Virus record (IMG/VR): IMGVR_UViG_3300022752_000082
Coordinates: 1 to 57,128 of that record
Length of the DNA: 57,128 nt
Reading direction: 5' to 3' (one strand)
DNA from: a virus
Numbering within the stretch: the stretch's first letter is position 1; every line of letters starts with the position of its first letter. Below, in pieces: positions 3,464 through 25,680 of this stretch. Both the position numbers and the translations under genes were made by a program. Under the pieces are notes generated by a model. It saw nothing but the letters and a program-made list of their open reading frames with translations, did no database searches and was not told the origin of the DNA.

Positions 3464-3485
3464 TCTATTATAACAGGTTGTAGAA
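3464..3485 (-). promoter_or_regulatory. Cassette promoter (variant) for the gene at 2859-3422
   Basis: Read leftward, the family consensus is a TTCTAAAAG box followed at once by TGTTATAAT (an extended -10, TG-n-TATAAT) and then RGAMTC. This copy has TTCTACAACC in place of the box and is one base longer. No conserved -35 lies upstream. The same element precedes about 35 other transcription units in the window. Confidence 0.75.
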
Positions 3486-3567
3486 AGCACCGCGTGATCG
3501 GCGCGATCGGCGAGCCGCGATCGGCGAGCCGCGTGCGCCCGGGGCTTTCGCCCCGGGCCGCGTCGCG

Positions 3568-3924
3568 TCAGCGCTTGTAGAGGTAGCCCGTGTAGGGATC
3601 CCACTTCGACTTGAGGTCGGCGAGTGAGCCCGCGTCGAGGATGTTGTAGCGCGCGCCGTTGAGGGCGGGTCGCTTCCATCCCGCTGACTTGTAGACGTCG
3701 CCGGTCTCCGCGTCGACGAAGCAGTGAACGCTCGCGCCGCCGCGTGCGCCTGACGGCGACACGGCGATTCGAATGTACTTACGTCCGCCATCGACGAAGA
3801 AGACCTCGGGCTTCAACATCGGGTAGTTCGCCGCGTGGTGCGCGACGTTGGCCTCGTTCATGAAGTCGACGAGTGCGTCGACCGCGACGAGGACCTCTCC
3901 CTTGCGGGTGGTCGTGGTAGTCAT
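3568..3924 (-). CDS. Hypothetical protein
   Basis: 118 aa; I do not recognise it. It starts with a Thr run (MTTTTT), shared by several cassette genes, then a helical segment, then beta strands ('KYIRIAVSPSG', 'VHCFVDAETGDVYKSAGWK') resembling a small phage domain found in proteins that report on food or label-like 'KSAGWK' folds. The end 'DPYTGYLYKR' is polar. There is no signal peptide or membrane segment. It is a single-gene cassette with its own promoter, leader hairpin (GGCAC/GTGCC) and GAAAGGAC site. Confidence 0.7.
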   Translation of the reverse strand: MTTTTTRKGEVLVAVDALVDFMNEANVAHHAANYPMLKPEVFFVDGGRKYIRIAVSPSGARGGASVHCFVDAETGDVYKSAGWKRPALNGARYNILDAGSLADLKSKWDPYTGYLYKR

Positions 3925-3965
3925 GGTGTCCTTTCGGTTGAGTCGGCACCCTGCGTGCCAACGAG

Positions 3966-3986
3966 TCTATTATACGACTTATAGAA
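3966..3986 (-). promoter_or_regulatory. Cassette promoter for the gene at 3568-3924
   Basis: Box variant TTCTATAAG, -10 TATAAT. A hairpin-bearing leader of about 40 nt separates it from the start codon. Confidence 0.75.
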
Positions 3987-4024
3987 GCCTCCCGATCCGC
4001 CGATCGCCGATCGGGCCGCGTCGT

Positions 4025-4045
4025 TTCTAAAAGTGTTATATTGGT
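4025..4045 (+). promoter_or_regulatory. Cassette promoter on the + strand
   Basis: This is the only rightward copy of the full box. The TTCTAAAAGTG box is intact and the -10 reads TATATT. It is followed by a GCGGCGC/GCGCCGC leader hairpin and an ACCGAAGGGAC ribosome site, so the whole cassette start has been inverted as one unit. Confidence 0.75.
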
Positions 4046-4091
4046 CTCCAGCGGCGCACAAGGCGCCGCGACAACCGAAGGGACGAATGAC

Positions 4092-4343
4092 ATGGAGAAA
4101 AGAATCATCATGGCGCGCACGAGCGACATCGGTCCGATGGGCCGAGGCCAGGCGGGCAAGCAGAAGGTGTACGAGATTCTCGTCACCGGCAACACGGTCA
4201 CTTTCTCGTGGGGCATGGCGGAGAAGGTTCAGCGCCAAACGAAGCGCATCACCTGCCGCAGCCACCAAGAGGCCCTGGCCGAAGCGAACGCGAAGGTCGC
4301 CGCAAAGGCCGACCGCGGATACCGCGTCCTGCTCAACGCCTAA
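4092..4343 (+). CDS. Small WGR-like domain protein
   Basis: 83 aa. 'KQKVYEILVTGNTVTFSWG' followed by a basic stretch, 'EALAEANAKVAAKADRGYRVLL', matches the WGR-fold pattern (Y-E-I...V...WG...K...GY). It is a clear paralogue of the leftward gene at 10856-11107, sharing 'PMGRGQAGKQKVYEILV' and 'FSWGMAEKV'. WGR domains usually bind DNA or proteins near DNA ends; here the domain stands alone. An in-frame ATG 51 bases upstream lies inside the leader and lacks a ribosome site, so I take this ATG. Confidence 0.75.
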   Translation: MEKRIIMARTSDIGPMGRGQAGKQKVYEILVTGNTVTFSWGMAEKVQRQTKRITCRSHQEALAEANAKVAAKADRGYRVLLNA

Positions 4344-4357
4344 TCGAACATCGCGGG

Positions 4358-4379
4358 GGCCGGGGCAGCAGCCCCGGCC
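4358..4379. terminator. Bidirectional GC hairpin
   Basis: A perfect 9-bp stem GGCCGGGGC/GCCCCGGCC with a 4-base loop lies between the convergent genes ending at 4343 (+) and 4379 (-). It could stop transcription from both sides. Confidence 0.6.
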
Positions 4380-4654
4380 TACCTGCGCTCGGGCAACGTG
4401 AACCCACAACTGCACGTGTAGCGACCGGCGTCATTGCGTCGAATCTCGCTACCGCAGCGCCAACACGAGGCTGTTCGAAAGAGCACTCCGCGACCCGGAC
4501 GCCCGGGGACTCGCGGTCGGTGCGCATCGTGCTCAGTCGTGTAATGAGTCATGTGCTCTATCGGAGTCGCGAACAGCGCCCCGCACACCATGCAATCATA
4601 CTTCAACTTACTTTTTGCCGGAGCGCGCTTGCGCTTCGGCTTTTTCCGTGTCAC
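4379..4654 (-). CDS. Zinc-finger protein (C2H2-like plus C4)
   Basis: 91 aa. After a very basic N-terminus (residues 1-20, many K/R), 'YDCMVCGALFATPIEHMTHY' has C2H2 spacing, and 'CWRCGSEI...YTCSCGF' is a C4 knuckle. The GTG start overlaps the TGA of the upstream transglycosylase (GTGA), so translation is probably coupled. A longer frame upstream would overlap that gene extensively and is rejected. Nucleic-acid binding is likely. Confidence 0.65.
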   Translation of the reverse strand: MTRKKPKRKRAPAKSKLKYDCMVCGALFATPIEHMTHYTTEHDAHRPRVPGRPGRGVLFRTASCWRCGSEIRRNDAGRYTCSCGFTLPERR

Positions 4655-5202
4655 AGCGCCCAATGGCCGAGTCCGCCGTTGTCGAGGAGGTATCGTGCGA
4701 CCTTGAGGTTGCAGTCGAGGTCGACGAGCGCGAACATCTGCCCCCAAGGCGTCCCGCACACCTCGTGCGTCACGGTCTTCCATGTCGAATTGATCTGGAG
4801 CAGTCCGACGTCGTAAGAACCGTCACGGTTCAGTGTCTTGGTCGGCTTTCCGTCAGGTCCGAACTCTGCGTTGACCTTCGTCGGGTCGCAACGTGTCTCA
4901 CGCCACGCAATGAACGAAAAAGTGCCGATGGGTTCTAGCCCGTATGCCTCGAACAGCGCCTCGAACTCGGGACAGCGCCTCGAGCGCTCAACTTCAGCCG
5001 GAGACCGTTCAGTGACCGCGGTAGTCGCTGCCGTGGCGACTACCGGCGGCGCGGTTGTCGCTACCTCGACCGCGACTGCTGTAGTCGTCACAAGTCGAAT
5101 CTCTGCCGGCTCCACGCCGCTTGGCGTGAACGGCGCGACGACTCCAGCAACCGCTGTTATCGCCAGGCAGAGCGCGCGAGCGACCGGCATGGGCAACATC
5201 AC
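4651..5202 (-). CDS. Secreted lytic transglycosylase/lysozyme-like protein
   Basis: 183 aa. An N-terminal signal-like hydrophobic stretch (residues 1-25) is followed by an Ala/Thr/Val-rich linker (35-65) and a lysozyme-fold domain: 'IAWRETRCDP' supplies the catalytic Glu and 'DVGLLQINSTWKTV' is the SLT-type motif. It resembles the protein at 43035-43658. It probably cleaves cell-wall glycan. It overlaps its neighbours on both sides by 4 bases (ATGA and GTGA), so it is in an operon with 5199-5546 and 4379-4654. Confidence 0.75.
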   Translation of the reverse strand: MMLPMPVARALCLAITAVAGVVAPFTPSGVEPAEIRLVTTTAVAVEVATTAPPVVATAATTAVTERSPAEVERSRRCPEFEALFEAYGLEPIGTFSFIAWRETRCDPTKVNAEFGPDGKPTKTLNRDGSYDVGLLQINSTWKTVTHEVCGTPWGQMFALVDLDCNLKVARYLLDNGGLGHWAL

Positions 5203-5546
5203 TTTGCTCCCATCGACCGCGCGTCCGCGTCCTCGACCTCGTGCATCGTGTGCCAGACGTGCGACGCGGCGTAATAGTACTCATTGCCGCGCGTGACCTC
5301 GAGTCGGCTTTTGTAGTTCGAGTAATCGAGCATCTCGGCCTCGGTCGCGAGGAAGTTCGTGAACTGTTCTCGCGTTGCGATGACCCTGTAGGGATAGTCG
5401 TTGTCCGGAGTCCGCAAGACCTCGAGGTCATAGAGTTCTGAAATGAACTCGAGAGCTTTCTTGTCGCGCGCTCGGACGAGTATCTTGTCGTTGTCCTCGC
5501 TGCTTTGTACCGCGCTGATGAAACCGCGTTGAGTAAATAGCCACAT
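5199..5546 (-). CDS. Hypothetical protein
   Basis: 115 aa, not recognised. It is soluble and acidic, with mixed alpha/beta character ('KILVRARDKKALEFISELYD', 'YPYRVIATREQFTNFLATE'). The pattern 'SHVWHTMHEVEDAD' near the C-terminus is His/acid-rich. The leader has an AAGGAGACAACACA ribosome site with good spacing. It is first in a three-gene run with ATGA overlaps into the transglycosylase and then the zinc-finger gene, so it may act in the same process. Confidence 0.65.
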   Translation of the reverse strand: MWLFTQRGFISAVQSSEDNDKILVRARDKKALEFISELYDLEVLRTPDNDYPYRVIATREQFTNFLATEAEMLDYSNYKSRLEVTRGNEYYYAASHVWHTMHEVEDADARSMGAK

Positions 5547-5611
5547 TGTGTTGTCTCCTTGTTTGTCGTTTTGTCGTTTTGATTGCGCACGGCGTGATGT
5601 GCACCGCGTGA

Positions 5612-5803
5612 TTACTGTTCGGTCTCTGCTGGAAACGAGACGCCGGCGGGGAGGTCGGCCATCGACATCGGCGTGACGTCGACCTGACCGTACTCCTCGC
5701 GCATCGCTTTGACGGCATGGTGCTTGAGTCGTGGCAGCACGTAGGCAACGATCGGTTCGCGACCTGGCCTTGGGACCGTGAGCTTGTAGACTTCTGCTTC
5801 CAT
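5612..5803 (-). CDS. Hypothetical small protein
   Basis: 63 aa, not recognised. 'AVKAMREEYGQVDVTPM' looks like one helix and 'VYKLTVPRPGREPIVAYVLPRL' two strands. It has a strong GGAGGAAAC ribosome site. A degenerate promoter (TAGAAT) lies at about 5815, inside the last codons of the small gene upstream. Confidence 0.6.
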   Translation of the reverse strand: MEAEVYKLTVPRPGREPIVAYVLPRLKHHAVKAMREEYGQVDVTPMSMADLPAGVSFPAETEQ

Positions 5804-5823
5804 GTTTCCTCCGCTATTCTACG

Positions 5824-5967
5824 TTAGTTCTGAAGGTTGAGTAGCGCGGCGATGACGCCGCCCAGCCCGATCGCGAGAACCAACTCCTGCGGACCGCCGG
5901 CCGCTGCGGCGATGACTGCGACTAAACCGCAGCACGCCGCCGCGACGGCGGACCACACGATGCGCAC
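5824..5967 (-). CDS. Small membrane protein, two TM segments
   Basis: 47 aa. Nearly the whole length is hydrophobic: about residues 3-22 (Val/Ala-rich) and 27-44 ('LVLAIGLGGVIAALLNL'). The GTG start overlaps the TAG of the upstream HTH gene (TAGTG), so translation is probably coupled. Holin-like in size, but it lacks a charged tail, so I assign no function. Confidence 0.55.
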   Translation of the reverse strand: MRIVWSAVAAACCGLVAVIAAAAGGPQELVLAIGLGGVIAALLNLQN

Positions 5968-6323
5968 TACTCGCTCGCCTTTGTGCGCGTGCGTCCCTTG
6001 AGGCGCGCCGACGGGTTTCGGATCTCGACTCCGGCAGTTGCGAGCAACTTGCGGACCTTGCTGTAGGTCGTCCCGTACTGACGTGCGACCTCGATCACCG
6101 TCTTGCCTTCGTTGTAAAGCTGGCCCGCAACTTGCGGCGTCAGCTCGGGTGATTGCGGCGTCGATAGCGACGACGCGTCGTTGAATGTTGACATTTGTTT
6201 CTCCTGTGTCTGTGCTGTAGTTTGTACTTGCTCGCCCTGTTGCGTCGACATCGTCGACAGAGTTTCACGCGCCCGGGCGAATAACCCGCGTGACTCTTCG
6301 AGCAGGTTGGTGCTCGAGTCCAT
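5967..6323 (-). CDS. Small helix-turn-helix protein
   Basis: 118 aa. Residues about 63-100 ('LYNEGKTVIEVARQYGTTYSKVRKLLATAGVE') form a Hin/resolvase-like HTH; the tail is basic. The ATG chosen lies 7 bases after a TATAAT, suggesting a leaderless transcript. An internal ATG at 6194 has a good AGGAG ribosome site and would give a 75-aa protein holding just the HTH; residues 30-43 look low-complexity, so both starts may be used. Probably a DNA-binding regulator. Confidence 0.6.
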   Translation of the reverse strand: MDSSTNLLEESRGLFARARETLSTMSTQQGEQVQTTAQTQEKQMSTFNDASSLSTPQSPELTPQVAGQLYNEGKTVIEVARQYGTTYSKVRKLLATAGVEIRNPSARLKGRTRTKASE

Positions 6324-6327
6324 GTAG

Positions 6328-6334
6328 TCTATTA
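6328..6334 (-). promoter_or_regulatory. Extended -10-like promoter without the upstream box
   Basis: TTATAATAGACTAC matches the cassette -10 and initial transcribed bases, but the TTCTAAAAG box is missing. The ATG is 7 bases after TATAAT. Confidence 0.5.
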
Positions 6335-6343
6335 TAACCACCA

Positions 6344-6676
6344 CTACTGCATTTCCGAGGAAGATCGAACTACCCCGAGTAGTGGTGCTGGGTCGGTGAT
6401 TGAGTGCTCTTCGACGACAGACAGGCTGTACCTACGCGCCGCGATGTAGCCGCAGAACCCGAGCACCAGCGGAAGCACGAGCAGCGGCGCGGGCCAAGAC
6501 GTCAGCCACAGCTCCATGGCGACCGTACTCCAGACTCCGACCGTGAGGCCGACACCCGACAGCAGCGTCGCCCTGCGCGCCTTGCGCCGGGCCGCGTTGC
6601 GCTCGACGTAGAGGACCGCGTTGAAGATCTGAGCCTGGCGCTCGATGTCATCGAACACGCTCATGTCTCTCGTCAT
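6344..6676 (-). CDS. Membrane protein, two TM segments
   Basis: 110 aa. A basic cytoplasmic N-terminal helix ('ERNAARRKARRA') precedes two hydrophobic segments at about 38-58 and 60-80, followed by a polar tail. It starts inside the stop of the LysM gene (ATGA overlap). The paired arrangement with a LysM protein and a coiled-coil protein suggests an envelope role; holin-like function is possible but unproven. Confidence 0.6.
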   Translation of the reverse strand: MTRDMSVFDDIERQAQIFNAVLYVERNAARRKARRATLLSGVGLTVGVWSTVAMELWLTSWPAPLLVLPLVLGFCGYIAARRYSLSVVEEHSITDPAPLLGVVRSSSEMQ

Positions 6677-6912
6677 GGCAACCTGACCTCCTGTGTCGGT
6701 CGGATGTCTGCTCCGTACCTGTCAACGAGCGCTTCGACTGCAGCCCGCACGTCGCCGGTGCAGTGTTGTTCGGCGATGCGCGAGAGCGTGTCGCCTTCCT
6801 GCACGATGACTACCGTACCATCGCACGAGTAGTCCGGCGTGAAGACCTCGACCGCGAGAAGTCCTCCCACGGCCAAGGCTCCGACGAGTGCCAGCGCCTT
6901 TGCGCGCCGCAT
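6673..6912 (-). CDS. LysM-domain envelope protein
   Basis: 79 aa. A single N-terminal hydrophobic segment ('ALALVGALAVGGLLAVEVF', 5-23) is followed by a LysM-like unit ('VVIVQEGDTLSRIAEQHCTG...VEALVDRYG...IRPTQEVRLP'). LysM domains bind N-acetylglucosamine polymers, so it is probably membrane-anchored and faces the wall. It overlaps the upstream stop by one base (TGATG) and the next gene by ATGA. Confidence 0.7.
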   Translation of the reverse strand: MRRAKALALVGALAVGGLLAVEVFTPDYSCDGTVVIVQEGDTLSRIAEQHCTGDVRAAVEALVDRYGADIRPTQEVRLP

Positions 6913-7109
6913 CAGCGGTCGAAGATCGAGGTCGGCTCGATCTTGTCCGCCTTGAGGTCCCGCAAGACCGCCTGGATGTCGACGCTTGCGTCGTCGAGTG
7001 CCGTCGCGAGCTCAACGAGCTCTGCGCGACGCTCGGTGATCTCGGCCTGCACCTTTGCGATGCGTGCTGTGATCTCTTCGACCGTGCGTGCTTTCTTCTT
7101 CATGTTCAT
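6912..7109 (-). CDS. Coiled-coil small protein
   Basis: 65 aa. Residues 10-55 are one predicted coiled coil ('EEITARIAKVQAEITERRAEL...LATALDD'). No membrane segment or Cys. It is the first gene of a cassette whose leader contains a GGAGGC-GCAA-GCCTCC hairpin and AAAGGGAC ribosome site; the LysM and membrane genes follow with overlaps. Confidence 0.65.
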   Translation of the reverse strand: MNMKKKARTVEEITARIAKVQAEITERRAELVELATALDDASVDIQAVLRDLKADKIEPTSIFDR

Positions 7110-7153
7110 GTTGTCCCTTTGTCTCGGGGAGGCTTGCGCCTCCGGTTGATGAT

Positions 7154-7174
7154 TCTATTATAGCACCTATAGAA
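7154..7174 (-). promoter_or_regulatory. Cassette promoter for 6912-7109 and followers
   Basis: Box variant TTCTATAGG, extended -10 TG-C-TATAAT. Confidence 0.75.
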
Positions 7175-7185
7175 GTTGCCGGCGC

Positions 7186-7350
7186 CTACTTGCGCGGCGC
7201 CTTCAGCAGCATGCCGATCAGGCCCGCGGTTGCCCCGGGGGAGAGGTCTCTGAACCCCCAGAGGGCCTCGTCGATCAGTCCGCGGTACCGTACCGGTACC
7301 CGGCGCTCGACCGCGAGTCGCTCGAGCAGCTCGCGCTGCTTCGGGCTCAC
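7186..7350 (-). CDS. Stand-alone KQR-domain small protein
   Basis: 54 aa from GTG. 'SPKQRELLERLAVERRVPVRYRGLIDEAL...LSPGATAGLIGMLLKAPRK' aligns along its length with residues 8-58 of the protein at 2859-3422, so it is a one-domain paralogue. The GTG overlaps the TGA of the 32-aa ORF upstream (TGGTGA). The frame stays open upstream as Pro/Glu-rich sequence, so an N-terminal extension or a frameshift joining it to the upstream ORF cannot be excluded. Confidence 0.55.
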   Translation of the reverse strand: MSPKQRELLERLAVERRVPVRYRGLIDEALWGFRDLSPGATAGLIGMLLKAPRK

Positions 7351-7445: not shown

Positions 7446-7448
7446 GAG

Positions 7449-7469
7449 TCTATTATACCACTTTTAGAA
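7449..7469 (-). promoter_or_regulatory. Cassette promoter, leaderless type
   Basis: TTCTAAAAGTGG box with TATAAT; AGACTC then ATG. The upstream gene's TTC-TAA stop lies inside the box. Confidence 0.8.
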
Positions 7470-7676: not shown

Positions 7677-7679
7677 GAG

Positions 7680-7700
7680 TCTATTATAACACCTGTAGAA
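7680..7700 (-). promoter_or_regulatory. Cassette promoter, leaderless type
   Basis: Box variant TTCTACAGGTG, -10 TATAAT, drives 7464-7676. Confidence 0.75.
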
Positions 7701-7711
7701 AGTACCGGTGC

Positions 7712-7733
7712 GCCCGGGGCTTGCGCCCCGGGC
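7712..7733 (-). terminator. GC hairpin
   Basis: A perfect 9-bp stem GCCCGGGGC/GCCCCGGGC with a TTGC loop lies between the stop at 7746 and the next promoter. It is the clearest example of the hairpin that closes a cassette. Confidence 0.6.
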
Positions 7734-7745
7734 CCGCGTGTCCGG

Positions 7746-8183: not shown

Positions 8184-8224
8184 TGCGTATGTCCTTTCGG
8201 TTAGTGCCGGCGGTTGCCGACAAG

Positions 8225-8245
8225 TCTATTATAACACTTGTAGAA
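8225..8245 (-). promoter_or_regulatory. Cassette promoter for 7746-8183
   Basis: Box TTCTACAAGTG, -10 TATAAT, hairpin leader. Confidence 0.78.
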
Positions 8246-8430: not shown

Positions 8431-8433
8431 GAG

Positions 8434-8454
8434 TCTATTATACCACTTTTAGAA
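8434..8454 (-). promoter_or_regulatory. Cassette promoter, leaderless type
   Basis: Exact box TTCTAAAAGTG with GTATAAT. It contains the TAA stop of 8449-8829. Confidence 0.8.
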
Positions 8455-8829: not shown

Positions 8830-8832
8830 GAG

Positions 8833-8853
8833 TCTATTATAACGTCTTTAGAA
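8833..8853 (-). promoter_or_regulatory. Cassette promoter, leaderless type
   Basis: Box TTCTAAAGACG with TTATAAT. It carries the TAA stop of the gene ending at 8837. Confidence 0.78.
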
Positions 8854-9321: not shown

Positions 9322-9361
9322 GTCGTTTGTCCTTTCGGTTAGGTCGGCTCGTGCCGGTGAT

Positions 9362-9382
9362 TCCATTATAACACCTTTAGAA
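9362..9382 (-). promoter_or_regulatory. Cassette promoter for 9112-9321 and 8837-9100
   Basis: Box TTCTAAAGGTG, TATAATGGAATC, leader hairpin CGGC-ACGA-GCCG. Confidence 0.78.
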
Positions 9383-9384
9383 GC

Positions 9385-9797: not shown

Positions 9798-9838
9798 GTT
9801 GTTCGTCCCTTCGGTTAGTGCCGGCAGACGCCGGCAAG

Positions 9839-9859
9839 TCTATTATAACACTTTTAGAA
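9839..9859 (-). promoter_or_regulatory. Cassette promoter for 9564-9797 and 9385-9567
   Basis: Exact consensus; holds the TAA stop of 9854-10033. Confidence 0.82.
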
Positions 9860-10033: not shown

Positions 10034-10036
10034 GAG

Positions 10037-10057
10037 TCTATTATAACGCTTTTAGAA
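10037..10057 (-). promoter_or_regulatory. Cassette promoter, leaderless type
   Basis: Box TTCTAAAAGCG with TTATAAT; contains the stop of 10041-10205. Confidence 0.8.
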
Positions 10058-10207: not shown

Positions 10208-10345
10208 TCAGTCCCAGTTCCCGCGGCGGCACGCCTTACGGCTGGCCTCCCGCTTCTTGTTGGGAATCGTCTGGGCCTTGAGGACATTCCGATCCGCGAA
10301 GGCTTGGCGGTCTTCTTTGTTCCACTTTGTGCTTGGTTTGGTCAT
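10208..10345 (-). CDS. Small basic protein, leaderless
   Basis: 45 aa (MTKPSTKWNKEDRQAFADRN...), rich in Lys/Arg with one Cys ('KACRRGNWD'). Start 6 bases after TATAAT. Possibly nucleic-acid-binding; not recognised. Confidence 0.6.
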   Translation of the reverse strand: MTKPSTKWNKEDRQAFADRNVLKAQTIPNKKREASRKACRRGNWD

Positions 10346-10348
10346 GAG

Positions 10349-10369
10349 TCTATTATAACACTTTTAGAA
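10349..10369 (-). promoter_or_regulatory. Cassette promoter, leaderless type
   Basis: Exact consensus, drives 10208-10345 and 10041-10205. Confidence 0.82.
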
Positions 10370-10736: not shown

Positions 10737-10782
10737 TCGTTGTTGTCCCTTCGGTTGTACCGGCGCCCTTTGCGCCGGTGAT

Positions 10783-10803
10783 TCCATTATAACACTTTTA
10801 GAA
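10783..10803 (-). promoter_or_regulatory. Cassette promoter for 10425-10736
   Basis: Exact box, TATAATGGAATC. Confidence 0.82.
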
Positions 10804-10855: not shown

Positions 10856-11107
10856 TTAGGCCTCCAGGATGACCCGGTACCCGCGGTCCACCTTGGCCCA
10901 CTTCTTCTCAGCGGCGGCGGCCATGGCGGCCTGGCTGCTGGAGAAGGTGACTCGGCTGACCTGGCGGCGCACCTTTTCGGCCATGCCCCAAGAGAAGGTC
11001 ACGGTGTTCTCGCTCACGAGAATCTCGTAGACTTTCTGCTTGCCTGCCTGGCCGCGGCCCATTGGGCCGTGGTCGCTTCCCTTGGTGAGGATGATTCGCT
11101 TTTCCAT
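10856..11107 (-). CDS. Small WGR-like domain protein (paralogue)
   Basis: 83 aa, same length as the + strand gene at 4092-4343 and alike through 'PMGRGQAGKQKVYEILV', 'TVTFSWGMAEKVRRQ' and 'KVDRGYRVILEA'. Differences cluster in the middle helix. Leader hairpin CCAGCAC/GTGCTGG and GAAGGGAC site. The two copies are in opposite orientations 6.5 kb apart. Confidence 0.77.
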   Translation of the reverse strand: MEKRIILTKGSDHGPMGRGQAGKQKVYEILVSENTVTFSWGMAEKVRRQVSRVTFSSSQAAMAAAAEKKWAKVDRGYRVILEA

Positions 11108-11152
11108 CGCTGTGTCCCTTCGGTTGTACCAGCACCGGTTTGTGCTGGTGAT

Positions 11153-11173
11153 TCTATTATAACACTTTTAGAA
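11153..11173 (-). promoter_or_regulatory. Cassette promoter for 10856-11107
   Basis: Exact consensus with TATAATAGAATC. Confidence 0.82.
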
Positions 11174-11508: not shown

Positions 11509-11555
11509 TGCGTATGTCCTTTTGTCGTTGTGGTTGGCCGGCTTGTGCCGGTGAG

Positions 11556-11576
11556 TCCATTATAACACTTTTAGAA
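11556..11576 (-). promoter_or_regulatory. Cassette promoter for 11278-11508
   Basis: Exact box, TATAATGGACTC, leader hairpin CCGGC-ACAA-GCCGG. Confidence 0.82.
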
Positions 11577-11621: not shown

Positions 11622-11945
11622 TTACTTGGCTTGGAGGACCGTGTAGGCGGTCTCCGTGAGGCAGGCCGCGTAGGCCTCCGGGAAGGCGGCCTTGAGGGCC
11701 TCGCGGTCGATGTTGCTGCGGTTGCGGTGGTTCACCCGCACGCGCTCCACGCCGTTGATGACGCCGATGTCCGCGCCTTGGAGGAGAGCGCGGATTGCGT
11801 TCTCAGCCTCGGCCTTCTTCGCCTCGAGCGCCTTGATGGCCGCCTTCGCCTCGTTGAACTCGACGATCAGCGCCTCGGCGCTCGGGTCGAGGACCGCGAC
11901 GTGCTCGGAAGACACGACGGTCGTGGTGGTGGTGATTGTGGTCAT
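11622..11945 (-). CDS. Coiled-coil protein, paralogue of 24384-24710
   Basis: 107 aa. Thr/Val-rich start, then a coiled coil ('SAEALIVEFNEAKAAIKALE...'), then a conserved 'INGVERVRV' strand and a C-terminal block 'RNRSNIDREALKAAFPEAY' ending 'YTVLQAK'. The C-terminal half resembles the tail found in some phage YqaJ-type exonuclease proteins, but no nuclease is present. About two thirds of positions match 24384-24710. GAAAGGAC site supports the ATG. Confidence 0.75.
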   Translation of the reverse strand: MTTITTTTTVVSSEHVAVLDPSAEALIVEFNEAKAAIKALEAKKAEAENAIRALLQGADIGVINGVERVRVNHRNRSNIDREALKAAFPEAYAACLTETAYTVLQAK

Positions 11946-11991
11946 TGCTGTCCTTTCGGTTGTTGTCGCGGCACCCTTTGTGCCGCTGGTA

Positions 11992-12012
11992 TCCATTATA
12001 ACACTTTTAGAA
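11992..12012 (-). promoter_or_regulatory. Cassette promoter for 11622-11945
   Basis: Exact box, TATAATGGATAC, leader hairpin GCGGCAC/GTGCCGC. Confidence 0.82.
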
Positions 12013-12299: not shown

Positions 12300-12343
12300 T
12301 GATGTTGTCCCTTCGGTTGGGCGACGCGGGTGCGCCGCTGGAA

Positions 12344-12364
12344 TCCATTATAACACTTATAGAA
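12344..12364 (-). promoter_or_regulatory. Cassette promoter for 12066-12299
   Basis: Box TTCTATAAGTG, TATAATGGATTC, leader hairpin around GCGGCGC. Confidence 0.8.
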
Positions 12365-12688: not shown

Positions 12689-12729
12689 TGTGTCCCTTCG
12701 GTTGTACCGGCGCCCTTTGCGCCGGTGAT

Positions 12730-12750
12730 TCCATTATAACACTTGTAGAA
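12730..12750 (-). promoter_or_regulatory. Cassette promoter for 12419-12688
   Basis: Box TTCTACAAGTG, TATAATGGAATC; leader hairpin CCGGCGC/GCGCCGG identical to that of 10425-10736. Confidence 0.8.
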
Positions 12751-12784
12751 ACCACGCAGGCTTCGATGGTCGCCATAGATGGAG

Positions 12785-12803
12785 TCGAGGTCGATGTCGA
12801 CCT
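12785..12803 (-). terminator. Small inverted repeat after stop
   Basis: GAGGTCGA and TCGACCTC arms just past the stop at 12808. Confidence 0.4.
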
Positions 12804-12807
12804 CGGC

Positions 12808-12984
12808 CTACGAGCGAGCGAAGACGAGTGTTTCGACGACGGCCTTCTCGAGCGCGCTCAGGCCTTCGGCGGACGCGTACGCGTCGACCAGGGCCTCGGT
12901 CGCCTCTTGGTCGCCTGCGTACTCAGCGTTCGCGGTCGCGACGATGTCGTCGGCGATCTTGATCAGTTTCTCGTTTGGTCTCAT
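12808..12984 (-). CDS. Small acidic helical protein
   Basis: 58 aa (MRPNEKLIKIADDIVATAN...), helix-rich with 'EGLSALEKAVVETLV', comparable to 'EGLNARQQRELSEAF' in 9854-10033. Leader is short and lacks the hairpin but has CGAAAGGAC. Confidence 0.62.
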   Translation of the reverse strand: MRPNEKLIKIADDIVATANAEYAGDQEATEALVDAYASAEGLSALEKAVVETLVFARS

Positions 12985-13010
12985 GTCTTGTGTCCTTTCG
13001 GGTTGTTGAG

Positions 13011-13031
13011 TCCATTATAACACTTATAGAA
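13011..13031 (-). promoter_or_regulatory. Cassette promoter for 12808-12984
   Basis: Box TTCTATAAGTG, TATAATGGACTC. Confidence 0.8.
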
Positions 13032-13036
13032 ACAGG

Positions 13037-13104
13037 CCCGTCTGCACGGCGCGTGCCTAGCGTGCCTGTGCCCGTCTGCACGGCGCGTGCCTAGCGTGCC
13101 TGTG
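13037..13104 (-). repeat. Tandem 34-bp repeat x 2 (CCCGTCTGCA family)
   Basis: Two identical 34-base copies stand between a promoter and the stop at 13107. Each begins CCCGTCTGCACGG and ends GCGTGCCTGTG. The same bipartite core appears at 19369, 19526-19620 and six places in 26.9-27.8 kb, some inside genes. Confidence 0.85.
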
Positions 13105-13106
13105 CG

Positions 13107-13697
13107 TCACACCGGGCGGTGCTGCGTGAAGTAGCTAAACGGTTGGCCCGTCCCGGAGTCGAGGCGTGCCGCGACGTGCAGAGCCTTCTTGGCTGCTTCG
13201 CGCGCTTGCTCGATGTCGTCGGTCCCGTCAGGCAGCATGGCGTGTAGCGCGCCGACAGCAAAGTCTCCTCCCGAGCCGAGCCCGTATAGCCCGGTCGAGT
13301 CCCGTGCCCATGAGTAGTCTTGCCCGATGGTGTAGGCAGCGCCGTTGACGACGACCAAGATCTCCGAGCCGGCCTCGGCCGAGCCCGTCTCCGAGTTGCG
13401 TACCTCGCCGTACCCGTTCTTCTCGAAGCACGACCGCAGTGCCGGAACGAAGTCGCGCGTGATGAACCGATCGAGCTTTGCCTCGACGTATGACTGCGCG
13501 TCCGGCGGAGTGAATGCGTACGCGAGTAGGTTGATCGCCCGCACATCGCCGGCGGCGCCGAGCAGGTACTTGCGATTCCTTGTGACCTTGCTTCCTGCCT
13601 TCGCGAGCGTGTAGGTACGTCCGTACTCCTCGGTGACGCGCGAGTCGGCGCCGACCACGACCCACCGCGGGCCTTGGATAGCGACAAGCGTCGTCAT
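13107..13697 (-). CDS. HslV/proteasome beta-like Ntn-hydrolase
   Basis: 196 aa, close to HslV length. After Met removal the N-terminus is TTLVAIQG, matching the Thr1 nucleophile and first strand of T1-family peptidases. 'VVVGADSRVT' places Asp at position 17 as in HslV and proteasome beta subunits; 'AGSKVTR' supplies the Lys33 equivalent after a short insertion; 'YGLGSGGDFAVGALHAM' matches the HslV 'GSGG' loop carrying the conserved Ser. No HslU is seen, but a MoxR-type ATPase is 9 kb upstream. It overlaps the HTH gene by ATGA. It could be an active self-compartmentalising protease or a degenerate structural relative. Confidence 0.75.
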   Translation of the reverse strand: MTTLVAIQGPRWVVVGADSRVTEEYGRTYTLAKAGSKVTRNRKYLLGAAGDVRAINLLAYAFTPPDAQSYVEAKLDRFITRDFVPALRSCFEKNGYGEVRNSETGSAEAGSEILVVVNGAAYTIGQDYSWARDSTGLYGLGSGGDFAVGALHAMLPDGTDDIEQAREAAKKALHVAARLDSGTGQPFSYFTQHRPV

Positions 13698-13909
13698 TCG
13701 TCTGCCGGCAGTGGGTTCTCGATGAGCATCACCTTGACCGCGTTCTGGATCTTTGCGATGTCGGAGTTCTTCGACTGGAGCGGGTTGTCACAGAACTTCT
13801 TGACCTGTGACTTCTTCACTCCGGACTTCTCTGCTACCTTGTCGATGCCGAGCTTTCGGACGGTGCCGGTGAGGTCGAGCATCTTGTCTGATACCTGCGC
13901 TGTTGCCAT
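13694..13909 (-). CDS. Small HTH DNA-binding protein
   Basis: 71 aa. 'TVRKLGIDKVAEKSGVKKSQVKKFCDN' is a lambda-repressor-like HTH, followed by a helix. Translationally coupled to the peptidase gene (ATGA), so it may regulate that operon. Leader without hairpin; GAAGGGAC site. Confidence 0.7.
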   Translation of the reverse strand: MATAQVSDKMLDLTGTVRKLGIDKVAEKSGVKKSQVKKFCDNPLQSKNSDIAKIQNAVKVMLIENPLPADE

Positions 13910-13940
13910 GTAAGTTGTCCCTTCGGTTGAGGTTGTTGAG

Positions 13941-13961
13941 TCTATTATAACACTTTTAGAA
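13941..13961 (-). promoter_or_regulatory. Cassette promoter for the HTH-peptidase operon
   Basis: Exact consensus TATAATAGACTC. Confidence 0.82.
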
Positions 13962-14249: not shown

Positions 14250-14278
14250 GCTGAACCTCCTAGGTTGTTGGTGTTGAT

Positions 14279-14299
14279 TCTATTATAACACTTTTAGAA
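14279..14299 (-). promoter_or_regulatory. Cassette promoter for 14049-14249
   Basis: Exact consensus TATAATAGAATC, no leader hairpin. Confidence 0.82.
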
Positions 14300-14946: not shown

Positions 14947-15195
14947 TCACCTCAGCACGATGGACTCGACCTTGAGTCGCCCGCGACGGATGAGCCTGCG
15001 CTGGTTGGCCGTGAGGCCGCCCCACACGCCGTACTCGTCCTCACGCGGTATCGCGAAGGCCCGGCACTCCTCGAGCACCGGGCACGAGGCGCAGATCTTT
15101 CGCGCTTTCGCGACGTTACTCTTCTTCAAGTCATCAAAGAAGAGTTCACCGTGACCGACACACGCGGCCCTTGACATCCAGCGGAGGTTCGTCAT
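14947..15195 (-). CDS. whiB: WhiB-family iron-sulfur transcription regulator
   Basis: 82 aa, typical length. Four Cys at 12, 35, 38 and 44 (C...CxxCxxxxxC) bind a 4Fe-4S cluster, followed by the signature GVWGG (56-60) and a basic tail 'TANQRRLIRRGRLK'. WhiB proteins bind the sigma-A region 4 and are limited to Actinobacteria and their phages; phage copies such as mycobacteriophage TM4 WhiBTM4 can repress host genes. Overlaps 15192-15581 by ATGA. Confidence 0.92.
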   Translation of the reverse strand: MTNLRWMSRAACVGHGELFFDDLKKSNVAKARKICASCPVLEECRAFAIPREDEYGVWGGLTANQRRLIRRGRLKVESIVLR

Positions 15196-15793: not shown

Positions 15794-15832
15794 TTCGTAT
15801 TCCTCTCCGGGCTGGTGCCCTTGGTTGATAGT

Positions 15833-15853
15833 TCTATTATAACACTTTTAGAA
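15833..15853 (-). promoter_or_regulatory. Cassette promoter for the WhiB operon
   Basis: Exact consensus; leader hairpin GGGC-ACCA-GCCC. Confidence 0.82.
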
Positions 15854-16306: not shown

Positions 16307-16347
16307 TGTTGTGTCCTTTCGTCGTGGGCTTGCGCCCGGTTGATGAT

Positions 16348-16368
16348 TCTATTATAACGCTTTTAGAA
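16348..16368 (-). promoter_or_regulatory. Cassette promoter for 15911-16306
   Basis: Box TTCTAAAAGCG, TATAATAGAATC; contains the TAA stop of 16363-16680. Confidence 0.82.
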
Positions 16369-17326: not shown

Positions 17327-17360
17327 TGCTTGGTTTGTCCTTTCGGTTGTGGTTGGTGAT

Positions 17361-17381
17361 TCCATTATAACACTTTTAGAA
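17361..17381 (-). promoter_or_regulatory. Cassette promoter for 16925-17326 operon
   Basis: Exact box, TATAATGGAATC, leader without clear hairpin. Confidence 0.82.
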
Positions 17382-17625: not shown

Positions 17626-17666
17626 TGCGGTTGTCCTTTCGGTAGGTACCGGCGGCTGCCGGTGAT

Positions 17667-17687
17667 TCTATTATAACGCTTTTAGAA
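17667..17687 (-). promoter_or_regulatory. Cassette promoter for 17425-17625
   Basis: Box TTCTAAAAGCG with TTATAAT; holds the TTA-TAA stop of 17671-17850. Leader hairpin GCCGGC... present. Confidence 0.82.
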
Positions 17688-18370: not shown

Positions 18371-18412
18371 TGCGTTGTCCCTTCGGTTGTGGGCTTGCGC
18401 CCGGTTGATGAT

Positions 18413-18433
18413 TCTATTATAACGCTTTTAGAA
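18413..18433 (-). promoter_or_regulatory. Cassette promoter for 18134-18370 operon
   Basis: Box TTCTAAAAGCG, TATAATAGAATC. Confidence 0.82.
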
Positions 18434-18984: not shown

Positions 18985-19022
18985 TGCGTTGTCCTTTCGT
19001 TGGGCCGGCGGATGCCGGCGAG

Positions 19023-19043
19023 TCCATTATAACTCTTTTAGAA
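19023..19043 (-). promoter_or_regulatory. Cassette promoter for 18481-18984
   Basis: Box TTCTAAAAGAG, TATAATGGACTC. Confidence 0.8.
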
Positions 19044-19299: not shown

Positions 19300-19342
19300 C
19301 GCGTTGTCCTTTCGTTGAGTTAGGTCGGCTGCTGCCGACGAG

Positions 19343-19363
19343 TCTATTATAACACTTTTAGAA
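19343..19363 (-). promoter_or_regulatory. Cassette promoter for 19087-19299
   Basis: Exact consensus TATAATAGACTC. Confidence 0.82.
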
Positions 19364-20426: not shown

Positions 20427-20454
20427 GTCACTGTCTCCTTTTGTTGTTGTTGGT

Positions 20455-20475
20455 TCTATTATAACGCTTTTAGAA
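20455..20475 (-). promoter_or_regulatory. Cassette promoter for 20223-20426 and followers
   Basis: Box TTCTAAAAGCG, TATAATAGAACC. Confidence 0.82.
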
Positions 20476-22371: not shown

Positions 22372-22419
22372 TGTTGTGTCCTTCCTAGACATTGTTGTTG
22401 GTCGGGCTTGCGCCCTGAT

Positions 22420-22440
22420 TCTATTATAACACTTTTAGAA
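22420..22440 (-). promoter_or_regulatory. Cassette promoter for the VWA gene
   Basis: Exact consensus TATAATAGAATC; leader hairpin GGGC-GCAA-GCCC. Confidence 0.82.
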
Positions 22441-22459
22441 ACGGTATTGGTGGTGAGAG

Positions 22460-22529
22460 AGCCGGCCGGGACCTACCACAGTCCGGCCGACTCCCTCCCG
22501 GCGAGTCCTTCCTCGACGAGGAAAGGATG
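22460..22529 (-). terminator. Two hairpins after the AAA ATPase gene
   Basis: GGCCGGGA/TCCGGCC (22460-22492) and TCCTTCCTC/GAGGAAAGGA (22504-22528) lie in the 100-base gap between the ATPase stop and the VWA promoter. Confidence 0.5.
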
Positions 22530-22542
22530 ACTCAAATCGAGG

Positions 22543-23538
22543 TCAGATTCTCGCCGGCCTGAACTCCGCTCCTAAGACGCGGGTCAGGACATCTGCTACC
22601 ACCGGGCGGTCAATCTCGGGCGCTGCTGCGAGCAGGTTCTCCACCGCGAACTTGGTGCCGAACGCGACTTCCAGGTCGCGGAAGGCGAGCAGCTCGCGCA
22701 TCTGCGGAGCCCAGGTGGTCTCCGCTGCCTGCTGCTTCTTGGCCAGGTTCTGCGCCGCCGTGACGAGCGCGGACGAGACTCCAAGCTTGCGAGCGAGAGT
22801 CCAGTCAGTGGTCATCTCCGCCTGCACGGTGAATCGTGAGAGAAGCGCCTCAGACAGGCGCACGCCGGGAGCGTTGGGGTTAGTGGCCGCGATGACGTAG
22901 AAGCCATCGGCCGCCTTGACCGTGCCGCGCTCTGGGTTGGCCGTGACCGTGTACTCGCGGCGGCCGTCCATCAGACCGTAGACGATGCTGAGCACCTTCG
23001 GGTCGATGAGGCCAACCTCGTCGATCAGCAGCACGCCGCCTGACTCGGCAGCCTTGAGCAGCGGGCCGTCTTCCCAGATGAAGCCACCGCTTGGCGTCTG
23101 CACGTAGCCGCCGACCAGGTCAGCGACCTCAGTGTCACCCGAGCCAAGCACGGTGAAGAGTCCACCGTCCTGGTCGTGGAATGCAGCTTCGACAAGAGCA
23201 GTCTTGCCGCAGCCGGGCGAGCCGTAGAGGAGCACGTAGCTGCTCATCTCGCGAGCCTTGCGAAGCACCGCGATGTCGAGGTGGTCGCCCCACGCGCGAG
23301 TGTAGTATAGCTCGCCGTTCGGGCGTGCGTACGACTTTTCGCCGGTGAGGGCATTCGCCGCCACTGTCTTCACCACCTTTGGTGTCTTGGGCTTGAATGT
23401 GCTGAGCTTGCCGTATGGGTCGACTGCCTTGTCAAGGGCCGCCCACGCGTCGGTGCTCACGGCCTGGGTCATCGTGTTGATGACAAGGTCCGAGAGCCCC
23501 GGGTAGAGCTCATTGTACTTCGTTGTGATTGGGTCCAT
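22543..23538 (-). CDS. MoxR/CobS-type AAA+ ATPase
   Basis: 331 aa. Walker A GSPGCGKT (106-113), Walker B 'VLLIDEVG' (169-176), sensor-1 'AATNPN' (Asn220) and arginine finger in 'LSEALLSRF' (Arg235). The 'DLVGGY' and 'GPLLKA' segments are typical of the MoxR/RavA/dynein-related clade. It should remodel or load a client together with the VWA protein encoded next. CobS-type cobaltochelatase ATPases belong to the same clade, so eye inspection cannot separate the two. Confidence 0.88.
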   Translation of the reverse strand: MDPITTKYNELYPGLSDLVINTMTQAVSTDAWAALDKAVDPYGKLSTFKPKTPKVVKTVAANALTGEKSYARPNGELYYTRAWGDHLDIAVLRKAREMSSYVLLYGSPGCGKTALVEAAFHDQDGGLFTVLGSGDTEVADLVGGYVQTPSGGFIWEDGPLLKAAESGGVLLIDEVGLIDPKVLSIVYGLMDGRREYTVTANPERGTVKAADGFYVIAATNPNAPGVRLSEALLSRFTVQAEMTTDWTLARKLGVSSALVTAAQNLAKKQQAAETTWAPQMRELLAFRDLEVAFGTKFAVENLLAAAPEIDRPVVADVLTRVLGAEFRPARI

Positions 23539-23585
23539 TGCGTTGTTTGTCCTTTCGTTTGGTAGGTTGAGTTGGTATTGCTGTT

Positions 23586-23606
23586 TCTATTATAACGCTT
23601 TTAGAA
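23586..23606 (-). promoter_or_regulatory. Cassette promoter for the AAA ATPase gene
   Basis: Box TTCTAAAAGCG, TATAATAGAAAC. Confidence 0.82.
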
Positions 23607-23610
23607 AGCG

Positions 23611-24066
23611 TCACTTGATGAAGGTGGTCGGAAAGCCGTGCTTGCGGCGGACCTTGAGCACGCGGCCGATGAGCTTGTACGGCGTGTTGCGGGCTATGAT
23701 GTCCTCCAGGTCCTTTTCAGAGACCTGCACGACGATCGGCTGCTTGTGCACGCGGAAGCCGCGTGTGTGCAGGCGCTCAATCGTCTGGTTGATGAACTCG
23801 CGGCGCATCTCCGCAGTCGACTCGGGCAAGAACGACGAGTGAGATGGCGAGAGGTAGCGCCACTGCTTCTTCGGTCCGCCGGCGCTGAGCTGCCTGCGGT
23901 AGGTGATCGCCGGGGTCTTGAGCGTAGGCGTGACCTTGCTCTGGGCCTCCGGGCAGATGAGCATCTGGAAGACGCTCGTGTCGATGCTGTGCGGGAGCAC
24001 AAACTCGAGGTACACGGCGTGTCCCACGAGAAGTGAGTCCTTCAGCTTTTCGTCATTTGGTGTCAT
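23611..24066 (-). CDS. Hypothetical basic protein
   Basis: 151 aa, not recognised. 'LLVGHAVYLEFVLPHSIDTSVFQML' strand region, 'RREFINQTIERLHTRGFRVHKQPIVVQVSEKDLEDII' helix-strand-helix, and a basic end 'GRVLKVRRKHGFPTTFIK'. Directly upstream of the MoxR-VWA pair with its own promoter, so it may belong to the same function. Confidence 0.66.
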   Translation of the reverse strand: MTPNDEKLKDSLLVGHAVYLEFVLPHSIDTSVFQMLICPEAQSKVTPTLKTPAITYRRQLSAGGPKKQWRYLSPSHSSFLPESTAEMRREFINQTIERLHTRGFRVHKQPIVVQVSEKDLEDIIARNTPYKLIGRVLKVRRKHGFPTTFIK

Positions 24067-24108
24067 TGCGTTGTTTGTCCTTTCGGGTAGTGGTTTGGTA
24101 TCGCGTAG

Positions 24109-24129
24109 TCTATTATAACACTTTTAGAA
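24109..24129 (-). promoter_or_regulatory. Cassette promoter for 23611-24066
   Basis: Exact consensus TATAATAGACTA. Confidence 0.82.
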
Positions 24130-24140
24130 ACGGCCCGGGC

Positions 24141-24296
24141 CTACGCGTCGAGGACCGCCTGGTCGTCTTGGTGAAGCTTGTCGGCGTAGATGCCGGTGTA
24201 GATGACGAGCTGCCCTTCGTTGTCGACCTCGACATCGAACTCTTCGACGGCGAGGATGAGCGCGTCAAGCTTCTTGTCACTGAGTCTTTTCTTCAT
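24141..24296 (-). CDS. Small acidic protein
   Basis: 51 aa (MKKRLSDKKLDALILAVEEF...), strand 'DVEVDNEGQLVIYTGIY' and acidic tail. AGAAAGGACACAGCA supports the ATG. No promoter of its own, so it depends on readthrough past the hairpin at 24341-24371. Confidence 0.58.
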   Translation of the reverse strand: MKKRLSDKKLDALILAVEEFDVEVDNEGQLVIYTGIYADKLHQDDQAVLDA

Positions 24297-24340
24297 TGCT
24301 GTGTCCTTTCTGGTAGTTGGGATGAGGTTGGGTGCTGCTC

Positions 24341-24371
24341 CCGGCGGCGGATGACCGCCACCGCCGGGAGT
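24341..24371 (-). terminator. GC hairpin, attenuator-like
   Basis: CTCCCGGCGG and CCGCCGGGAG arms between 24384-24710 and the promoterless small gene at 24141. Confidence 0.55.
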
Positions 24372-24383
24372 CGAGCGTGTGGG

Positions 24384-24710
24384 CTATTTGGCCTGGAGGA
24401 CCGTGTACTGCGACTCGGTCAGAGTCGCGGTGTACGCCTCGGGGAAGGCCGCCTTGAGCGCCTCGCGGTCGATGTTCGAGCGGTTCCGGGTGAGGATGCG
24501 GACGCGCTCGACGCCGTTGATGGCGCCGACGGACGCGGTTCCGAGCATCGCGCGGAGCTTGGTCTCGGCCTCGAGCTTCTTGGCCTCGATCGCCTTCATC
24601 GCGGCCTTGGCCTCGTTGAACTCGACGATCAGCGCCTCGGCGCTGGCTTCGAGGTTGGCGACCTCTTCGGTGGTCGTGACGACTGTGGTCGTCGTTGCGG
24701 TGGTTGTCAT
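24384..24710 (-). CDS. Coiled-coil protein, paralogue of 11622-11945
   Basis: 108 aa. Same layout as 11622-11945: Thr-rich start, coiled coil 'SAEALIVEFNEAKAAMKAIE', strand 'INGVERVRI' and tail 'RNRSNIDREALKAAFPEAY...YTVLQAK'. The C-terminal blocks are nearly identical, the coiled coil diverges more. It does not use the GAAAGGAC site; its leader reads GAGAGGAATACCGCA. Confidence 0.74.
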   Translation of the reverse strand: MTTTATTTTVVTTTEEVANLEASAEALIVEFNEAKAAMKAIEAKKLEAETKLRAMLGTASVGAINGVERVRILTRNRSNIDREALKAAFPEAYTATLTESQYTVLQAK

Positions 24711-24753
24711 TGCGGTATTCCTCTCTGGGGCTGGTGCCCCGGTTGTTGTTGAT

Positions 24754-24774
24754 TCCATTATAACGCTTTTAGAA
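24754..24774 (-). promoter_or_regulatory. Cassette promoter for 24384-24710
   Basis: Box TTCTAAAAGCG, TATAATGGAATC; leader hairpin GGGGC-ACCA-GCCCC. Confidence 0.82.
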
Positions 24775-24844
24775 ACGGCGCCCGGGCTGTCTCGCCCGGG
24801 GCGCCTTATCTATAGTGACCGTAGCGCAGGGGTGTTACAGGGTT

Positions 24845-25360
24845 TCAGCAGATGCTGAAGCCGCCGCATGACTCGAGGAAGAGCGCAAACTCGTCGACAT
24901 TCGAGACATCGAACGGGTAGCCCGCGGCCCAGTGCTCTTTGGTGCCGACGCCGTCACAGCCATTGCACCAGCCGTGCGTGCGCCCGGTGAGGATCGCTAC
25001 CTCAGGGGGGAGCTCGCGTGTGGGCATGCCCATGTCTTGGCCGACCTTGTCAGTGCGGATGCCGGTACCTTCGCAGAGGCTGCACACCTCGCGAGGAAGT
25101 GCAGCGAGCTCGGCTCGGTAGTCTTCCTCGTACTTCTTGGTGCGGCCTGATCGAATCTCTGCGAAGAGAATCGCCGCGAGCTTCTGTGCGCCCTCCGCGT
25201 CGAGCCCTGAACCAGCGTTGCTGTGCCCATCGACTTCCTTGCAGAGCTCAGGAGCGACGTGTTCGCAGTAGTTCCAAAGTGGACGCCACCACCACACGTT
25301 GTTCCTGAAGTATTCGCCGGCATCGTCTGTCGGCGCCTTTCCGTATACATCCATTCCCAT
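24845..25360 (-). CDS. Phage protein with DnaJ-like zinc motifs
   Basis: 171 aa. 'MGMDVYGKAPTDDAGEYFRN' and 'VWWWRPLWNYCE' match a widespread phage/bacterial small-protein family of unknown role. 'VCSLCEGTGIRTD' and 'WCNGCDGVGT' are CxxCxGxG knuckles as in DnaJ zinc centres. Ends in a 'DEFALFLESCGGF' helix. Confidence 0.75.
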   Translation of the reverse strand: MGMDVYGKAPTDDAGEYFRNNVWWWRPLWNYCEHVAPELCKEVDGHSNAGSGLDAEGAQKLAAILFAEIRSGRTKKYEEDYRAELAALPREVCSLCEGTGIRTDKVGQDMGMPTRELPPEVAILTGRTHGWCNGCDGVGTKEHWAAGYPFDVSNVDEFALFLESCGGFSIC

Positions 25361-25398
25361 GCTGTTTCCTCCAGTTGTTGTTGGGTTGGTATTGCGAT

Positions 25399-25419
25399 AC
25401 TATTATACGACTTTTAGAA
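25399..25419 (-). promoter_or_regulatory. Cassette promoter for 24845-25360
   Basis: TTCTAAAAGTCG, TATAATAGTATC; contains the TAA stop of 25414-25629. Confidence 0.78.
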
Positions 25420-25629
25420 AGCCTTGATGCCTTCCGACTGGCACCACGGCTCAAAGTCGAGAGCCAGCTCGCGCATCCACTCGCTGACCCAGTTCTTGCG
25501 GCGCTCTTCGAATGTCTCGCCTGGGTGGTCGGGAAGAAAGCGTGCCTCCTCCTCGTACATCTCTTCGGCCTCGACCAGCATCATGTCGAGGTACTCCTGG
25601 TACCGCTCACGGGGAGTTTGGTTCACCAT
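25414..25629 (-). CDS. Acidic helical protein
   Basis: 71 aa; long acidic helix ('QEYLDMMLVEAEEMYEEEA'), 'TFEERRKNWVSEWMRELAL' second helix. Not recognised. Stop TTC-TAA inside the next promoter. Confidence 0.65.
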   Translation of the reverse strand: MVNQTPRERYQEYLDMMLVEAEEMYEEEARFLPDHPGETFEERRKNWVSEWMRELALDFEPWCQSEGIKAF

Positions 25630-25659
25630 GTCATCTGTCCTTTCGTTGTGGTTGACGAG

Positions 25660-25680
25660 TCTATTATACGACTTTTAGAA
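25660..25680 (-). promoter_or_regulatory. Cassette promoter for 25414-25629
   Basis: TTCTAAAAGTCG, TATAATAGACTC. Confidence 0.8.

Follow-up and report, generated by a model that had tools for sequence, protein, structure and literature searches.

A repeated, probable composite promoter in an uncultured actinobacterial phage and a winged-helix protein as a candidate reader of its upstream box

What reads a short element that stands, almost unchanged, before dozens of genes of a single virus? The question is raised by the IMG/VR record IMGVR_UViG_3300022752_000082, of which a stretch of 57,128 nucleotides was analysed (hereafter the window; positions are counted on the whole stretch). The window is from an uncultured actinobacterial phage, which is marked as a tailed phage by genes for a terminase, a tape-measure/endolysin-like protein, a primase and a class II ribonucleotide reductase. 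It is probably a genome fragment; no end repeats are reported for the record. A sequence-only reading had proposed 36 near-identical copies of one compact promoter, each facing a gene, and this count held. The consensus TTCTAAAAG-TGT-TATAAT-RGAMTC has 35 copies at three or fewer mismatches (mean 0.00 in 100 shuffles), 34 on the minus strand and one on the plus strand, and a 36th copy on the minus strand (3461-3485) carries one extra base separating the box TTCTAAAAG from the -10. The length given there, 21 bases, has to be corrected to 24, the sum of the parts quoted. Position weight matrix scores of the 35 copies range from 37.7 to 49.1, as compared with a best score of -2.7 in five Markov-shuffled windows. 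Each copy is oriented toward a gene, mostly small genes and mini-operons, and the sole plus-strand copy (4025-4048) stands, as had been noticed, before a plus-strand gene read from the sequence (about 4092-4343).

When the 36 copies are aligned on the -10, a per-column count of the kind that the earlier reading had proposed concentrates the information in columns -24 to -4, while columns upstream of -26 hold less than 0.4 bit each and those from -56 to -27 less than 0.3 bit, in a window of 60% G+C; a -35 hexamer is thus missing. TATAAT is intact in 35 of the 36 copies, with G at -14 in 33 and T at -15 in 27. The resulting TGnTATAAT, at -15 to -7 and seven bases before the predicted start, is that of an extended -10 promoter working without a -35, in agreement with the first description. 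The box (-24 to -16) directly abuts this extended -10, and only two boxes without a -10 are found in the window, about the chance level; the right half of the element varies among copies. The composite element is very likely a real promoter. Moreover, a hairpin with z<-2 precedes 16 of the 36 copies against 9% of control positions, so that a terminator-like stem seems to insulate many transcription units on their upstream side. The partial copies that had been listed proved to be of two kinds: 26655, 6336 and 37733 have TATAAT but lack the box, and 49484 is a weak match to which we give no weight. TATAAT sites without the box precede other genes at 34060 (+), 37733 (-) and 6336 (-), and that at 34060 places the ATG of a subtilase gene at +1.

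Relatives were recruited as contigs with the AAA ATPase, together with the metagenome-assembled phage DSL-LC01 (OQ999401.1), whose predicted host belongs to the Actinomycetia (PMC10611076), and their elements were derived by de novo motif search and anchored consensus. At the DNA level DSL-LC01 was the only relative of the window found, across 793 bases; it and the recruited contigs nevertheless have the gene block in common with the window. Before the same orthologous genes, relatives of two clades have 14-33 copies of their own version of the element: CTAAAG-like in clade A (TTCTAAAGATGT in DSL-LC01, AACTAAAGTTGT in L031, ATCTAGGGATTG in L034, TTCCAGAG in L037, and others) and ACCTGATATAAT followed by AGTACT, TATCCTA and similar in clade B. 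The element of L090/L091 is AAGTGTAC...GTATAAT. Orthologues are preceded by the element of their own phage in 22/22, 21/22, 21/22 and 15/15 cases. Across 12 phages (about 280 copies) the register between box and -10 is fixed, with few shifts. The search of related phages that had been suggested gave such versions of the element; the exact 18-mer had only 20 single matches in viral contigs, which we take as chance. In the complete DSL-LC01 genome (129 kb) all 32 copies lie within the block, between 22.6 and 43.3 kb, and in other long contigs the element is nearly confined to it. Two promoters of genes outside the block of DSL-LC01 (84381 and 99705) have ACCTGTTATAAT, which is clade B-like although the phage belongs to clade A. 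In more distant relatives the same genes follow canonical TTGAC-N17-TAnnnT promoters instead, and TTGAC-type promoters also stand in the small-gene regions of cultured Microbacterium phages; no promoter array was found in Gordonia phages with related ATPases. Other repeated motifs, present on both strands, occur in L065-L069, L096 and L072/L082 (TTAGTAGCA, 38-46 copies; CCTTGATAGCA, 33; AACTTCnAACGAA, 35-36) and are possibly operators or terminators.

The start point can be read from the first codons. We predicted +1 at the seventh base after TATAAT, and the +1 ATGs indicate this spacing, within the 6-8 bases first suggested: an ATG falls exactly there in six window genes, and first ATGs pooled over 22 phages fall at +1 in 47 copies, at +2 in 15 and, between +3 and +16, about once at each position. 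Of the rest, most lie between +20 and +45 and follow a GAAAGGAC-type ribosome site. A preference for a CA(T) initiator could lie behind part of the +1 signal. Nevertheless, true leaderless starts are argued for, since first ATGs are sparse up to +16 and since the gene at 10208-10345 (-), under differing boxes, is predicted to be leaderless in 7/7 orthologues; its product is a basic protein of 45 amino acids. Of 30 leaders in the window, 24 have folds stronger than those of shuffles (p<=0.05), and stems start at +1 to +3 in 15; most leadered copies (3440-25660) open with a GC-rich 5'-terminal hairpin whose sequence differs between copies. This signal is much weaker in the relatives, and covariation of the window 5' stems was tested and not significant. 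It is possible that these hairpins protect the mRNA 5' end.

How, then, might such promoters be read? We tentatively favour, as a good possibility short of a probable one, a composite promoter served by host SigA and a phage-encoded reader of the box. Each copy would be a complete core promoter at which SigA RNA polymerase recognises TGT-TATAAT and initiates seven bases downstream without a -35, whose place would be taken by the box as a phage-specific specificity element, read in fixed register with the -10 by the phage factor jointly with the polymerase. The fixed register, the lack of boxes off promoters and the loss of the -35 argue for such a bound factor, so that this part of the earlier suggestion is favoured. 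As the most likely factor we put forward the winged-helix protein whose gene (26030-26605) stands at the block head; by binding the box it would recruit or stabilise the polymerase, in the manner of MotA at the middle promoters of T4. The regulon would then consist of small genes that have a promoter each and either a leaderless start or a short leader. Among long contigs, the winged-helix family is found in 13/13 phage records with the compact element and in 0/10 others, several of the latter being fragments, with absence firm only for the longer ones; the gene is also present in L090/L091. The two groups also separate by the density of TTGAC-N17-20-TAnnnT: 30 loci with the winged-helix gene have 0-2.6 per 10 kb, and 16/17 loci that lack it have 2.2-9.5 per 10 kb. 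An AlphaFold model of the product is a confident winged helix with a long C-terminal helix, and its Foldseek hits, at low TM-scores over the whole chain, are DNA-binding domains of the Fur, PadR and Orc1 types. The protein evolves fast: among six compared in clade A, none is less conserved (mean identity 28%). Comparison of the sequences indicates the promoter geometry, the start point, the membership of the regulon, the absence of the -35, its lineage-wide replacement and the co-occurrence with the winged-helix gene, and transcription by the SigA holoenzyme is the best reading of them. The need for a phage activator, the binding and activation by the winged-helix protein and the early timing of the class are what we infer from these data.

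Several observations weigh against this proposal. On the ATPase tree the joint winged-helix/promoter trait is clustered: it needs four changes, with only one independent pair on well-supported branches, and the association could go back to one or two events in the past. Within clade A, divergence of the winged-helix protein and of the box are uncorrelated (r=0.03, p=0.4). In only about half of the phages is the box part of the promoter of the winged-helix gene itself, and a perfect TGnTATAAT may need no activator at all.

A rival reading makes the box an operator. Host SigA alone might read strong extended -10 promoters right after infection, with a phage regulator (the winged-helix protein, or the small helix-turn-helix one at 13694-13909) later occupying box and -10 to shut the array off. 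We consider this unlikely, although nearly all copies have a perfect extended -10, about half of the phages have the element ahead of the winged-helix gene, and a coiled-coil dimer fits a repressor. The element of DSL-LC01 is indeed a near-dyad, GATTCTA-N12-TAGAATC, but the dyad is retained neither in the window, where the right half varies, nor in other relatives. Typical operators differ from a box kept at a single distance from the -10 and found off promoters at about the chance level, which also lowers the standing of the pure operator first suggested, and the loss of the -35 would be left unexplained.

Sigma factors in general can make some base-specific contacts upstream of an extended -10, and an unsampled host might have a polymerase (SigA with actinobacterial cofactors, RbpA or CarD for example) that reads the whole element without any phage factor, differences between phages being differences between hosts. 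The ordinary SigA-like promoters that more distant relatives have before the same genes are in line with this, yet nine contiguous near-invariant bases are more than sigma is known to read there, and the co-occurrence with the winged-helix gene would be left as coincidence. Moreover, 396 Actinomycetota genomes showed no enrichment of the exact core CTAAAGNNNTATAAT (by hand count about 42 matches, as compared with about 72 for the reversed control), although the true host may be outside this set. We regard this explanation as quite unlikely, and the element was rejected as a host promoter class on the same count; matches in two candidate contigs (G088, G204) were due to chance. It is highly improbable that recombination or the spread of promoter-gene cassettes mainly keeps the copies alike, with a box that has no reader: uniformity within a phage and difference between phages are typical of such concerted evolution and a few paralogues are present, but conservation ends 1-2 bases from the element amid random flanks, the downstream genes are mostly unrelated (one strong paralogue pair among 56 called window genes, which disposes of neighbour duplication as the cause), and the same orthologues retain an element in 15-22 phages.

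Other phage proteins were considered as readers. The 71-residue protein listed in Table 1 is a second candidate. WhiB was rejected as the specific reader, and a WhiB-modified polymerase, once proposed, gained no specific support: WhiB genes occur in 15/16 relatives, whichever promoter type these have. DSL-LC01 (L113) has a third WhiB-like open frame, without annotation in the record, at 12767-13225 (+). The helix-turn-helix protein 35376-35861 was discarded, having full-length relatives in both promoter groups. A phage sigma factor was also rejected, with no sigma region 2 in six relatives searched and weak region-4-like matches limited to two clade B phages. Rfam at the gathering threshold matched only a tRNA and no other RNA family; a tRNA-Thr (anticodon TGT) lies at 29254-29330 (-).

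Table 1. Promoter copies and candidate regulatory genes in the window
Feature	Position	Strand	Basis
Promoter copy, 1-base insertion	3461..3485	-	sequence
Promoter copy	3963..3986	-	24-mer match
Promoter copy, sole + strand one	4025..4048	+	24-mer match
Promoter copy	7151..7174	-	24-mer match
Promoter copy, predicted leaderless gene (ATG at +1)	7446..7469	-	24-mer match
Promoter copy, predicted leaderless gene	7677..7700	-	24-mer match
Promoter copy	8222..8245	-	24-mer match
Promoter copy, predicted leaderless gene	8431..8454	-	24-mer match
Promoter copy, predicted leaderless gene	8830..8853	-	24-mer match
Promoter copy	9359..9382	-	24-mer match
Promoter copy	9836..9859	-	24-mer match
Promoter copy, predicted leaderless gene	10034..10057	-	24-mer match
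Promoter copy, predicted leaderless gene (7/7 orthologues)	10346..10369	-	24-mer match
Promoter copy	10780..10803	-	24-mer match
Promoter copy	11150..11173	-	24-mer match
Promoter copy	11553..11576	-	24-mer match
Promoter copy	11989..12012	-	24-mer match
Promoter copy	12341..12364	-	24-mer match
Promoter copy	12727..12750	-	24-mer match
Promoter copy	13008..13031	-	24-mer match
Promoter copy	13938..13961	-	24-mer match
Promoter copy	14276..14299	-	24-mer match
Promoter copy	15830..15853	-	24-mer match
Promoter copy	16345..16368	-	24-mer match
Promoter copy	17358..17381	-	24-mer match
Promoter copy	17664..17687	-	24-mer match
Promoter copy	18410..18433	-	24-mer match
Promoter copy	19020..19043	-	24-mer match
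Promoter copy	19340..19363	-	24-mer match
Promoter copy	20452..20475	-	24-mer match
Promoter copy, 613-residue gene product (annotated cobalamin biosynthesis protein in DSL-LC01)	22417..22440	-	24-mer match
Promoter copy, AAA ATPase gene	23583..23606	-	24-mer match
Promoter copy	24106..24129	-	24-mer match
Promoter copy	24751..24774	-	24-mer match
Promoter copy	25396..25419	-	24-mer match
Promoter copy closest to block head	25657..25680	-	24-mer match
Winged-helix protein, C-terminal coiled coil, candidate box reader	26030..26605	-	co-occurrence, predicted structure
TATAAT-AGACTC promoter of winged-helix gene, no box	26644..26655	-	sequence
71-residue protein, weak helix-turn-helix matches, mainly clade A, second candidate	13694..13909	-	
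WhiB-like protein, not specific to compact promoter type	14947..15195	-	relatives compared

Among known systems, the array would work most like the T4 middle promoters without being one of them. These consist of a MotA box and a -10, with sigma appropriation by AsiA and MotA (PMC6755090, PMC2988021). Both have an excellent, often extended -10, a phage box replacing the -35, many copies and a reused host polymerase, but the MotA box is centred at about -30 whereas the window box is centred at about -20 (-24 to -16), the candidate winged-helix protein is of a different family, and no match named MotA or AsiA was obtained in the scans made, which covered part of the proteins. In Cluster K mycobacteriophages, the start-associated sequence (SAS) is a ribosome-binding-site-like 13-mer by the start codon and the extended SAS (ESAS) a 17-bp inverted repeat (PMC3203893, PMC12699233). 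They are likewise oriented repeats before many small non-structural genes, with subcluster-specific consensus, but neither is a compact box with an extended -10 and leaderless starts, and no ESAS-like 17-bp inverted repeat next to a SAS is seen in the aligned columns. The likeness to the ESAS is one of layout and of clade-specific consensus and does not extend to sequence or structure. Cluster A stoperators, described as silencing transcription elongation (PMC3203893, PMC4351075), likewise consist, in actinophages, of a short asymmetric element in many oriented copies; unlike them, the window copies contain a -10 and sit at the predicted transcription start, and copies outside promoters amount to the two boxes mentioned above. 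The Microbacterium phages Pumpernickel, Cece and Zooman share a related AAA ATPase, a small-gene region and many gene-strand promoters, which are however of the TTGAC-N17-19-TAnnnT type (20-28 per 49 kb on one strand and 0-2 on the opposite one). No description of this promoter array was found in the open-access literature.

Further genes of the window include a strong paralogue pair at 11622-11945 and 24384-24710 (-), with 76% identity and a weak match to the C-terminal part of a RecE-like exonuclease family (phrog_434). The small genes 4092-4343 (+) and 10856-11107 (-) are paralogous, one being inverted, with two to three copies each in DSL-LC01 and G401. A serine recombinase-like protein (integrase/invertase families) is encoded at 44627-45349 (+) and a 1697-residue protein with many collagen triple-helix repeats at 49991-55084 (+).

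To conclude, the finding might represent an undescribed modular system in which a winged-helix factor re-specifies actinobacterial SigA polymerase through a box next to the extended -10, instead of the -35, and regulons of about 15-36 promoters are rewritten along with it between lineages, an idea that we hold to be possible but rather doubtful. From its sequence, the array strongly predicts that uncultured actinophages have leaderless transcripts. It also provides a natural comparative experiment: related phages have the same genes under differing boxes, some with -35 promoters, and one gene family separates the groups. On this basis it can be asked how dozens of promoters come to be rewritten together by a phage, and how a factor can act at -24 to -16, where to our knowledge few bacterial activators bind. 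If the winged-helix protein reads the element, this would be a new version of the phage redirection of the host transcription machinery.

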